Positions 14,249 to 21,410 of a stretch of 64,000 nt of DNA are shown here, piece after piece. The notes below the pieces were generated by a model. It was not told the DNA's origin. It saw nothing but the letters and a program-made list of their open reading frames with translations, and searched no databases. This DNA is from Schlesneria paludicola DSM 18645 (GTDB taxonomy: Bacteria > Planctomycetota > Planctomycetia > Planctomycetales > Planctomycetaceae), in the NCBI GenBank assembly GCA_945876035.1, contig CAMCMU010000013.1:1-64000 (forward strand), read 5' to 3'. The position numbers were made by a program, and so were the translations under genes. Every line of letters begins with the position of its first letter. Position 1 is the first letter of the stretch.

Positions 14249-15373
14249 TCAAAGGGGTGTGCTTGATTTCGCAGAGTGCTCCGCCCGCAACTGTCGGGCC
14301 GCTTCAGTCAGCCGACAGAGTTTCTGATAAGCTTCATCGATAGTTGGAGGTTCGCCGGCGTCCGGCGCAAATCCACAATCCGGATTCAGAGCAATGCGAT
14401 GAACACCCAACCGCTGAATGCCGGCCCGCGCAATGCCCGCAATTTGCTCTACCGATTGCAACTGTTCCGTGCGAACATCAACGATACCCAGTCCGACTTG
14501 TAGCTGATTCGGCAGGAGATCCAAATCGCTGACATCTCCGGTTTGAGGATAGGCAAATTCCAAATTCACCCGGTCAACACGCAAGTTGTCTAATCTCGGA
14601 AGAAGCGGCTTGTAGTCGCCGACAACATCCGCCTGTCGTTTATAGACGCTGTGACAGGAATGCACATGAACTTCTGCCTGAAGCCCATCAGCGATCCGGT
14701 TGATGGCCTCCACCGCCGCCGGCACCTCTCGATTGGCATCCCACAGCCTGAGCAAACGCTGGTCGTGAATGGATTTGCCAGCCATTAAATTTGGATCGCA
14801 GTAATAGGTCAGTGCAGGATCATCCAACTGGATCACATCAATTCCGATTTCCGCCAACACTCGTGCTTCGACCGCCAGAATTTCGGTCAAGTGATCCATG
14901 AAATGTTGGGCGGTTGGATACGCCTCCCGACTGTAGTCTTCGTGCCAATAACGAACGGCAATCAGGAATGGACTGGGGAGGGCAAACTTCGTAAATCGCT
15001 CGGTATTTGCAACCAAAAACTGCGCATCATCGGCAAACACAGGGGCCTTTGTGGGCATGCGACGAACAACGACGGATGACATCTTGACTTCGCCCTGGTG
15101 TTCAATGACCCGGCAAGCCTCAAATCCACCAACCCGCATCAGAAATTCTTGAATGTATTGCGTTCGACGCCATTCACCATCACTGACGACATCCATCCCG
15201 GCGGTCTCTTGAAGCCGTATTGCGAATCGAACGAAATCGTCGAGCGCTGCGTGGACCGAGAGATCGTTCGGGCGTTCATCTCGTTGACGGAGCAGGTCGC
15301 GAACGACAAGAGGTCGTGGCAGTGAACCGATCGGATGTGTATACAGCAGCGGGAGTTTCTTGGAAACCGTCAT
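14249..15373 (-). CDS. Cobalamin-independent methionine synthase family protein (MetE C-terminal domain-like)
   Basis: This 374-residue protein corresponds to the catalytic C-terminal barrel of MetE without the N-terminal duplicate. The N-terminal HPIGSLPRP, DVVSDGEWRR and IQLDDPALTYY are family motifs. The zinc ligands are the His and Cys of EVHVHSCHS, a Glu in VNLEFAYP, and the Cys of LNPDCGFAPD. It probably transfers a methyl group to homocysteine or a related thiol, using a corrinoid protein or a folate. Stand-alone proteins of this kind are common and their donors are poorly defined. ATG 15373 is chosen over the in-frame TTG at 15385. Confidence 0.88.
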   Translation of the reverse strand: MTVSKKLPLLYTHPIGSLPRPLVVRDLLRQRDERPNDLSVHAALDDFVRFAIRLQETAGMDVVSDGEWRRTQYIQEFLMRVGGFEACRVIEHQGEVKMSSVVVRRMPTKAPVFADDAQFLVANTERFTKFALPSPFLIAVRYWHEDYSREAYPTAQHFMDHLTEILAVEARVLAEIGIDVIQLDDPALTYYCDPNLMAGKSIHDQRLLRLWDANREVPAAVEAINRIADGLQAEVHVHSCHSVYKRQADVVGDYKPLLPRLDNLRVDRVNLEFAYPQTGDVSDLDLLPNQLQVGLGIVDVRTEQLQSVEQIAGIARAGIQRLGVHRIALNPDCGFAPDAGEPPTIDEAYQKLCRLTEAARQLRAEHSAKSSTPL

Positions 15374-15571
15374 CGTCGTTCTCAATCTTCGTGTTGCCGA
15401 AATCGGAATGATTTACAGGACCGCGTTAAATTACTGCTGGCGTCGTCAATAGTCGATCGCTAAGGGTTTCGGTCAGCTCGCGGTTTGCTGATGAGCGGGA
15501 TTGGCCAACAGTTTGAGATCACGAAACGTCAACAGAGGATCCGTTGATTCGGATCGCATGTCGCAGAACAT

Positions 15572-18704: not shown

Positions 18705-19331
18705 TTATTGTACCGGTTCAGCAGCCAACTCCCCGAGTGAGTGTTCACAGTTCTTGGATGCGTAGACGCCCAAGGGCCCGAAAATCAACAAAACGTAGGC
18801 GAGAGTGCTGACTGATGCGTTGCGAAAGAATGGCAATGCTGCGGTATAGCATTCCAGAACCCCCGCTATGGTTCGAGGATAGATTGGGGCTGTTCCGTAA
18901 ACACAGAGGATGTTTGACACCAAAAAAAAGAATATTTCGAAACCAAGACCCAGGCACACGCCCCGGAGAAGTAAATCGCGAGGCTTGCAACAGCGAAGCC
19001 ATGAGCCCATCCCGGCAGCAGCAGAGTAGCTAACGTAGGGTAGCCACCAAGTATCGGCGGGGAAGGCCCAATCCCAGTGTCCCGAAAGGACCCCGATACC
19101 GATATTGCTGAGCAGCAGGGCCCCAAGAGGCAGGAGCATGGCAAGCCGTCGATCAACAAAACAGACGCCACTCATCAGGCAAATCGCTGTCAGCGGAGAA
19201 AAATTCCACGGATAGAAGATGATGGTTCGGTCGTATTCAATATCGCAATTGGACAAGCCGTAGGGGAGCAGACGCATCGCCACCGCGTAGGCAAGTAGCG
19301 TCAGCAGTAAAATCGGTTTGGATTGCGGCAT
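18705..19331 (-). CDS. DUF6580-family integral membrane protein, candidate transporter S-component
   Basis: This 208-residue protein has six predicted membrane segments and matches the DUF6580 pattern: FYPWNFSPLTAICLMSG, VDRRLAMLLPLGALLLSNIG and a later VSYSAAAGMGSWL. The small size, hydrophobicity and N-terminal motif recall substrate-binding S-components of energy-coupling-factor transporters. ATG 19331 is preceded by GAGGAACACA and is preferred over the upstream in-frame start at 19358. It is the last gene of the unit controlled by the cobalamin riboswitch at 21.5 kb, so a role in corrinoid, cobalt or precursor uptake is a reasonable inference. No ECF ATPase or T-component is in the window. 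Confidence 0.8.
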   Translation of the reverse strand: MPQSKPILLLTLLAYAVAMRLLPYGLSNCDIEYDRTIIFYPWNFSPLTAICLMSGVCFVDRRLAMLLPLGALLLSNIGIGVLSGHWDWAFPADTWWLPYVSYSAAAGMGSWLRCCKPRDLLLRGVCLGLGFEIFFFLVSNILCVYGTAPIYPRTIAGVLECYTAALPFFRNASVSTLAYVLLIFGPLGVYASKNCEHSLGELAAEPVQ

Positions 19332-19536: not shown

Positions 19537-19890
19537 CTACTTTTTTTCTAGAGGGCCATTGAAGGTCATCAACGTTTTGTGCATCGAGCAGATCCGGGCT
19601 GAGGGGTTATGTTGAAGAATTTGCCACGAGGGGCACGATTTCCATGCATGGCATGTCTCGCAGTACAGTCCTGGCAGCAGTGTCAGCCGTCCGGTCTCGG
19701 GGTTCTTTTCAGGAGAGACCTTGGAGCGGAGAGAAAATGCCGCCCCGGTTTCACTGCAAACATAGATCACTTCCTGACGCTCGTCGTTTTGCGATTGCAA
19801 CAAGCGAACCCCCGAGAATGCGGGAAAAAGCAGTCGACCTGCAATGAGGAGAAGAGCCAATGACAGCCACAGACGATAACCCCCAATCAT
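19537..19890 (-). CDS. Small membrane-anchored Cys-rich protein, unknown function
   Basis: This 117-residue protein has one N-terminal membrane segment (LWLSLALLLIAGRLLFPAF) and a soluble domain carrying conserved-looking metal- or redox-type residues. These are a Cys in VIYVCSETG, the pair in YCETCHAWKSCPSW and an isolated CSMHK near the end. The topology suggests that the domain faces outside the cytoplasm. ATG 19890 with AAGGAAC upstream is chosen over the longer frame from 20004. It sits between the DUF1559 pseudopilin and DUF6580 genes downstream of a cobalamin riboswitch, so it may help bind a corrinoid or metal. I do not recognise a family. Confidence 0.75.
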   Translation of the reverse strand: MIGGYRLWLSLALLLIAGRLLFPAFSGVRLLQSQNDERQEVIYVCSETGAAFSLRSKVSPEKNPETGRLTLLPGLYCETCHAWKSCPSWQILQHNPSARICSMHKTLMTFNGPLEKK

Positions 19891-20270
19891 GAGATGGTTC
19901 CTTAGAAAATAAAACGTGTTACTGAGGATGTGTTTACTCAGGGGGATCAGGTTCGGCAAACGGTCCACGGTGAATCGCTGTCCGGCGCCGAAAACCGGGT
20001 TCACGAAAACGGTCTACGAACCGAACTTTCGACACATGTGCCCGAGTCTTGCTGTGGCGACCATGGTCACGGCTTGGTGCGGCCGTCTCTTCACGACAAT
20101 TGCACCAAGCCTCGACAAAAGATTGACACTGCGGCCTGCCGCCCCACTTCTTTTCCCGCAGCTCTTTGGCCGTGACTCACCGAAATCTTCAGCCGAGGAG
20201 TTCTGGTTGCTTCGGCTTTGCGAAACAAGTGGCGAGGGCTTTTGAGCGGCTTCCGACGGGGGACTGAGCC
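19891..20270. other. Gap inside the riboswitch-controlled unit
   Basis: These 380 bases separate the pseudopilin gene from the small Cys-rich gene. Two minus-strand frames are open. One starts at GTG 20277, overlaps the pseudopilin stop by seven bases and ends at 20014. The other runs from 20176 to 19934 without a usual start codon but is gene-like in content (KKWGGRPQCQSFVEAWCNC, then DHGRHSKTRAH). One of them, or a frame-shifted combination, may be a further small gene, but neither has a ribosome binding site. Confidence 0.35.
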
Positions 20271-21278
20271 TCACCACGCGCTGTTGTGCGAGTCGCTGTC
20301 GATGATGAGGAACAAGTCATAGACTTCGTCTTGCTTGGCCGGATCACTAAGATTTCCGTCGCTCACGTAGCCCAGTCGTTTTTCTTCGATACGGTCGGCT
20401 TGTGCGGAGCTGATGAAGTTTTGGCCTGGGACCTCAATTTTATAGGCACGATTTCGTGAATCGACATGACCGTCCACATAGGCAACGTTTGCTGTGTTGA
20501 AGTGCCGAAAATGAATGTTAGGAAAATTTTCGCTCGGCGGCTCAAGTAGCCAAGCCTCCTGAAAATTCAAAGAAAAATCGACTTGAGCGCTGTCGGCAAA
20601 GAGCAGCGTGTTTGTCATTTGCATGACATCCCGCATCCTGCGAAACTTCGTGATTGGCGTGACGTTTGGCCAATCCGAGTAATCATAGTCGATGCCATAG
20701 CCGAGATAGCGTCCATTGAATCCGTAGGCGCTCGACATTTTTCCAAACCGAACGATATCCAGTTGCGATTCATCAAAAGTCGAGCACTGAAACAAGGAGC
20801 GATTCGTTTCCACGTACGGTGCGAGCGGGCTCGCCGAAAAGTCGAGCTGTTCGGCAGGATTTGGTTCGTCATAGTTTACGTTGCCGAACCAAAACCGTGC
20901 CTGACCGATCGAAGGATAGGCCGCAGCGTTGGCGATGAATTTCGCATCATCGATTCGATAGGGCATTAACTGCCCGTAGTAGGTCTCCGCATAGTTGTGG
21001 AATGCGAGTGCCAGTTGTCGGAGATTGTTTTTGCACTGAGTTCGACGAGCGGCCTCCCGCGCTTGTTGAACGGCGGGTAACAATAGCGCAACCAGCACGG
21101 CGATGATTGCGATCACCACCAGCAACTCAATCAGAGTGAATCCACGGTGACTCAAATGACGGCTCTGGCTCAGTCGTCGGAGACAGATTCCGGGGTCGGC
21201 CTCCGACTCCATCGACCGACTCGGGGTTGAGCTGGGGATCGGGGTTGAGCTGGGGACAGGAACAAGCACATCGCGCAT
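20271..21278 (-). CDS. DUF1559 pseudopilin-like exported protein
   Basis: This 335-residue protein has a type IV prepilin-like N-methylation motif ([20 protein letters not shown]) after an unusually long Pro/Ser-rich leader of about 45 residues. The planctomycete pattern [19 protein letters not shown] and the C-terminal H-x9-DG motif ([15 protein letters not shown]) identify DUF1559. A prepilin peptidase would cleave after the Gly, leaving the protein anchored by its hydrophobic helix. The start is set by GGAG seven bases before ATG 21278. The gene lies 130 bases downstream of an intrinsic terminator that follows a cobalamin riboswitch, and is first in that unit. Planctomycete genomes have many DUF1559 paralogues of unknown function; B12 control suggests a link to corrinoid or cobalt acquisition for this one. 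Confidence 0.93.
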
Positions 21279-21410
21279 GACAATTCTCCGTTGTCGACAC
21301 AAACCACGGAAACGCTGCCACAAAACTCGGCCTGATCCAACGCACGAGAAGACTTCTCACAAAAGGAATTCCGTCGCTGAATCCCTCTTGCTCAAGTATC
21401 ACGCTGACGA

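Follow-up and report, generated by a model that had tools for sequence, protein, structure and literature searches.

A riboswitch-linked membrane protein family, DUF6580, as a predicted solitary importer of corrinoids

One locus of the planctomycete Schlesneria paludicola DSM 18645 raises the question of what a membrane protein from a family without assigned function contributes to a gene unit headed by a cobalamin riboswitch. The window analysed here is a stretch of 64,000 nucleotides (GCA_945876035.1, contig CAMCMU010000013.1, positions 1 to 64,000), in which the riboswitch is followed on one strand by a gene for a DUF1559 pseudopilin, a small cysteine-rich frame and the DUF6580 gene, in that order (Table 1). 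The DUF6580 product aligns with the family profile PF20221 from position 5 to 155 of 162 (E 4.6e-33; 115.2 bits against a cut-off of 27); at E-values up to 1 it matches this Pfam family alone, and so not that of CbiM (PF01891), while the small cysteine-rich frame has no Pfam match. We consider it likely that DUF6580 is an inner-membrane uptake protein for corrinoids (vitamin B12), which is predicted to work alone in the manner of BtuM.

Table 1. Positions of the riboswitch, the genes following it and one candidate ligand codon within the window
Feature	Position	Strand	Remarks
Triplet for Cys161, close to the outer end of helix 6; candidate ligand of cobalt	18849..18851	-	Position calculated by hand from 19331
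DUF6580 protein, predicted corrinoid importer of S-component fold	18705..19331	-	208 aa open frame from ATG; PF20221
Small Cys-rich frame, exported or anchored, cluster cl4	19537..19887	-	Start uncertain; longest frame to 20004
DUF1559 pseudopilin frame, first after riboswitch	20271..21287	-	Start uncertain; PF07596 1.1e-14, PF07963 N_methyl 1.2e-7
Cobalamin riboswitch RF00174	21454..21645	-	123.6 bits, gathering 31.5

The riboswitch is the sole cobalamin riboswitch detected in this genome (96.85% complete), and its position upstream of the gene and on the same strand upholds the placing of DUF6580 in a B12-controlled unit by a preliminary description of the locus, made from the letters of the window. 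Co-transcription of the three genes is suggested by their order, their common strand and the recurrence of the same arrangement in relatives. The gaps inside the unit are wide (approximately 384 and 205 bases); promoter and terminator scans of it returned nothing above chance, the single weak terminator-like match between the first two genes coming from a scan that gave 3 matches against 4.4 in shuffled sequences. Downstream of DUF6580 lie two frames read by eye as the ribosomal protein genes rplM and rpsI. Elsewhere in the window (14249-15385, minus strand) a short MetE-like protein comprising the catalytic Meth_synt_2 domain only is encoded; the genome also has a frame for MetH (PF02965, E 1.3e-116). 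Searches of one open-access library retrieved no paper with DUF6580 or PF20221, and none that joined the term planctomycet with a cobalamin riboswitch.

The preliminary description had read the product as a small protein of about six helices and a candidate ECF S-component for corrinoid or cobalt; the proposed fold is supported by structure prediction and comparison. An AlphaFold model of the 208-residue window protein, made with 80 sequences (pLDDT 86.3, pTM 0.81), contains six membrane-length helical segments, and VIA-align placed BtuM of Thiobacillus denitrificans (PMC6072759; papers are cited by PMC number and from excerpts) at the head of the solved structures (8ovv, Z 14.3, rmsd 3.0, 167 aligned of 175; 8c7p, Z 14.2). 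The top 21 solved chains all have the S-component fold, at Z 14.3 to 8.2, and the next row stands at Z 7.2. An independent AlphaFold model of a second member, L114 (pLDDT 94.3, pTM 0.87), also has BtuM as its best match, twice at Z 14.5, tied with folate transporter chains at Z 13.5-13.6; its top 22 rows are S-component folds down to Z 8.8, followed by a row at 6.1. Across the 21 and 22 leading rows 147-176 residues were aligned, and S-components of the ECF type (RibU, FolT, ThiT, BioY, PanT) fall at Z 8 to 13.6. We take the chains of 4huq, 4hzu, 4rfs, 4m58, 4m5b and 5edl to be S-components. Foldseek matches were weak: the best E-values were 0.041 and 0.072, and no match reached 0.001. By the aligner's own caveat helical models without a clear match may reach a Z of about 14, so that the weight of the fold argument rests on all the leading rows sharing one fold. 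Read in this way, the two models support a six-helix S-component fold for DUF6580.

Sequence searches gave no corresponding relationship. The window protein returned only a chance match with phmmer, and no known transporter; a profile of 80 DUF6580 members found nothing among PDB sequences at E-values up to 10, and so no detectable similarity to BtuM; low-threshold Pfam scans of six relatives yielded, besides DUF6580, only chance-level or below-cut-off matches; NCBIfam held no model for the window protein or for two relatives; and plasmid records contained no match to a Thermomonas member of the family.

The general fold is shared by CbiM and NikM, which appear in the match lists of both models (4m58 at Z 9.4 for the window protein; the CbiMQO structure 5x3x at Z 9.6 for L114), and DUF6580 might, like them, carry cobalt or another metal ion. 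BtuM and the vitamin S-components score above CbiM and NikM, however, and the amino-terminal metal motif that characterizes CbiM is not seen in DUF6580. Since the window's genome already has a CbiM and no detected CobS, cobalt for corrin synthesis would also answer no obvious need, and we regard metal transport as very improbable.

The link of DUF6580 with B12 is general. Among 170 genomes sampled from the window's family, DUF6580 is present in 136, at 145 places, and a cobalamin riboswitch in at least 135. A riboswitch lies on the same strand and no more than 5 kb upstream at at least 50 of the 145 places, each in a separate genome. Among the riboswitches listed, no place has any other arrangement within 5 kb, and 7 more have both elements on one contig at a greater distance; the contigs of the other 88 are without a listed riboswitch. 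DUF6580 is itself the first gene in six family cases, where the riboswitch, among those listed, lies 167-436 bases before the DUF6580 match. Across multiple phyla, with typical members as queries, the best 80 of 393 confirmed loci were all scanned for RNA families: a riboswitch stands near DUF6580 in 38 of these 80 (36 upstream, 6 of which also have one downstream, and 2 downstream only, L141 being scored so because its assigned start overlaps its first riboswitch), the gene's own strand carries all 48 riboswitches, and none was shown at 42 loci. Riboswitches occur on both sides of DUF6580 in L110, L113, L121, L127, L132 and L144; in all of these but L110, whose contig ends there, the second one lies before a gene for a TonB receptor. 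The family genome G150 has a second DUF6580 copy (L089, 2005-3026) away from the listed riboswitch and directly after a gene for DUF4430, presumably a transcobalamin-like domain.

Neighbouring genes point the same way. At the best 80 of 393 loci (of which set A4 omits L169 and set A5 omits L141, L169 and L179), the same-strand neighbours include a cluster of BtuB-type TonB receptors (25 loci; two members checked in Pfam), DUF71 (23) and BtuF-like proteins (14), and by hand count 46 of the 80 have at least one such link. Among 41 family loci picked by hand (28 of them with a cis-located riboswitch, 12 lacking one, and the window), a BtuF-like protein is found in 18; the DUF71-like cluster numbers 9 members, the main DUF1559 cluster 24 and the small cysteine-rich cluster cl4 10. 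One BtuF-like member matches PF01497 (E 5.6e-18) and, as its top solved structure, the vitamin B12-binding protein 5ysc (E 1.8e-11). These neighbours are probably cytosolic, because their sequences begin at the fold with no signal peptide visible by eye; the window's genome has a BtuF-like gene elsewhere. The DUF71 neighbour matches PF01902. The DUF71-B12/COG2102 group, for which excerpts of PMC3541065 give a role in B12 salvage predicted from clustering with BtuCDF, is a cytosolic ATP pyrophosphatase-type enzyme and no transporter, and it was not detected in the window's genome. In L062 the gene next after DUF6580 encodes CobT (PF02277), and in L169 (4320-5537, on a contig labelled Akkermansia) DUF71 and DUF6580 occupy one uninterrupted reading frame, which represents either a fusion or a lost stop.

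A DUF1559 pseudopilin gene heads the riboswitch unit in family operons of both the DUF6580 and the BtuC type (window 19537-21287; L188, L189), and in several of these a small cysteine-rich or lipoprotein-like frame comes after it. DUF1559 here occupies the slot held by BtuB-type receptors in other phyla. Of 15 genomes sampled from the window's genus, only 2 gave a TonB plug match, and the window's genome gave none.

Within the window's family DUF6580 replaces BtuC-type permeases. When full-length FecCD is defined as a match above 250 bits, 133 of the 170 genomes have DUF6580 only, 25 have FecCD only, 3 have both and 9 neither (Fisher p 2.5e-19, shared ancestry ignored). In six FecCD-only genomes from four genera, one of them the window's own (G051, G052, G053, G075, G078 and G138), FecCD is preceded by a riboswitch on its own strand; the riboswitch-headed unit of this family therefore carries either DUF6580 or BtuC. 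The riboswitch stretch of G138 holds DUF1559, a gene of the nitroreductase fold (BluB-like), CobQ, CobO, a PF01497 protein and CbiB. BtuCDF, of the FecCD family, thus takes the same place under the riboswitch in related genomes, although it is an unrelated, ATP-driven system of several subunits and nearly excludes DUF6580 within this family. No BtuC was detected in the window's genome; of its two weak FecCD matches, the one examined proved to be an ABC-3 metal permease. The notion that the two are exclusive everywhere was rejected: strong FecCD matches occur in 4 of 14 DUF6580 genomes against 115 of 134 others in a phylum-wide sample (p 1.1e-5), but outside the window's family the trend is weak (p 0.085), the corresponding counts being 4 of 7 and 109 of 128 (115 and 109 were read by hand from the table before the test). 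In genus g10, which is without DUF6580, a FecCD permease and frames resembling a binding protein and an ATPase adjoin full-length MetE (L192, 4202-9499; G027), with no riboswitch listed near this FecCD, which may not be BtuC.

Other roles under B12 control have to be weighed against this pattern. DUF6580 could be a corrinoid sensor with the S-component fold, a corrinoid-modifying factor of the membrane, or an importer of some compound needed when B12 is short, given that receptors also use S-component folds (PMC11109136), that BtuM itself modifies its substrate (PMC6072759) and that B12-independent alternatives are also placed under B12 riboswitches (PMC2211319), as excerpts of these papers report. 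Against such roles stand the near-exclusion with BtuC-type permeases and the operon-for-operon replacement in four genera, the BtuB-type receptor, BtuF-like and DUF71 genes alongside, and the recurring DUF6580 frames, which carry no attached signalling domain; we hold a role of this kind to be quite improbable. Of the two substrates envisaged in the preliminary description, corrinoid is favoured by riboswitch linkage, B12-related neighbours and near-exclusion with BtuC, whereas cobalt gained no support of its own.

A corrinoid importer with this fold might nevertheless be a true ECF S-component that borrows EcfT and ATPases encoded elsewhere, for example CbiQ and the ABC protein of the CbiM locus. 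Its S-component fold in both models would suit this, an EcfT and an ABC ATPase are both encoded in the window's genome, and EcfT is commoner in family genomes with DUF6580 (67 of 136, against 7 of 34 others; p 0.003). Under a strict definition, however, an ECF S-component has its EcfT/EcfA module in the same genome, and EcfT is missing from half of the family genomes with DUF6580: 69 of the 136 have no match, and many of these are 97-100% complete. The EcfT detected in the window's genome is flanked by CbiM and an ABC ATPase, in a CbiM-CbiQ-ABC locus, and neither EcfT nor an ECF ATPase could be recognised in the genes that recur beside DUF6580. CbrT, the ECF S-component for cobalamin, did not by itself support growth in E. 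coli, according to excerpts of PMC5997447; E. coli lacks an ECF module (PMC6072759). We judge a borrowed module to be unlikely, and the dependence on one implied by the preliminary description gained no support; the absence of EcfT from 69 of 136 DUF6580 genomes, together with the position of the window's EcfT beside CbiM, favours a solitary, BtuM-like mode.

The resemblance to BtuM comprises the six-helix S-component fold, the B12 gene context and the occurrence in genomes without an ECF module. The BtuM gene mostly adjoins btuR and comes largely from alpha-, beta- and gammaproteobacteria (excerpts of PMC6072759), whereas DUF6580 occurs beside BtuF-like and DUF71 genes in many phyla, among them Planctomycetota, Bacteroidota, Acidobacteria, Ignavibacteria, several proteobacterial groups and others. 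The pocket of BtuM, as excerpted from the same source, is formed by H28, D67, Y85 and R153 with an essential C80. This invariant Cys80 lies in loop 3, whereas the common cysteine of DUF6580, Cys161 (120 of 138 members), lies near the start of helix 6, and the helix 3-4 loop has no conserved cysteine among the aligned members. The residues H31, D67 and Y88 of a typical member, L005, are numbered close to H28, D67 and Y85 of BtuM (PMC6072759), a comparison of numbers and not a superposition. DUF6580 is predicted to act like BtuM but is not its homologue by sequence, nor a BtuM by the position of its cysteine, and it is no proven ECF S-component.

In an alignment of 138 members, from which duplicates and sequences of fewer than 165 or more than 300 residues were excluded, N140 is invariant, followed by N43 (136), Y99 (135), D76 (133), R20 (131), C161 (120) and H40 (107). 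The window protein keeps Cys161, but its residues 40 and 76 are Tyr and Asn in place of the usual His and Asp. In the window model these seven positions lie near helix ends or in loops, and under a topology with the amino terminus inside they would face outward. All 18 of the 138 members without Cys161 keep His40, and all 31 without His40 keep Cys161; joint loss thus occurs in none, against 4.0 expected (P 0.007 before ancestry correction).

From these features we infer a route by which DUF6580 may import corrinoids alone, like BtuM, without an EcfT/EcfA module. A corrin would bind on the outside, in the space bounded by loop 1, the loop joining helices 3 and 4 and the end of helices 5-6; these parts carry the conserved residues R20, H or Y40, N43, D or N76, Y99, N140 and C161, with Cys161 and/or position 40 as candidate cobalt ligands. 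The protein would then change its orientation in the membrane and discharge the corrin on the inner side, where it could be captured by the BtuF-like protein that lacks a signal peptide, by DUF71/COG2102 where present, and by MetH; such capture would make downhill transport possible. Facilitated diffusion, which excerpts of PMC6072759 propose for BtuM, may together with capture inside describe DUF6580 as well. At high B12 the riboswitch would switch the unit off. A fuller version of this scheme is conceivable but doubtful: DUF6580 would constitute a second class of B12 importers acting alone, in which either His40 or Cys161 holds the cobalt, as the absence of joint loss hints, and which deliver to the BtuF-like protein as a cytosolic trap, while in the window's family, read here as Pirellulaceae and poor in TonB receptors, DUF1559 and the cysteine-rich protein would perform the outside task of BtuB.

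Excerpts of PMC6072759 state that most B12-dependent prokaryotes take up the vitamin through inner-membrane proteins still to be identified, and that many auxotrophs are without BtuCDF. DUF6580 seems to take the place of this classical pump in many environmental bacteria. If this is true, a widespread family without a function would fill part of the gap in B12 uptake, and genome surveys could recognise uptake in lineages that currently count as incapable of importing the vitamin. DUF6580 would then provide a second S-component fold, unrelated in sequence, that imports B12 without an ECF module, and would help in asking how solitary S-components move their cargo.
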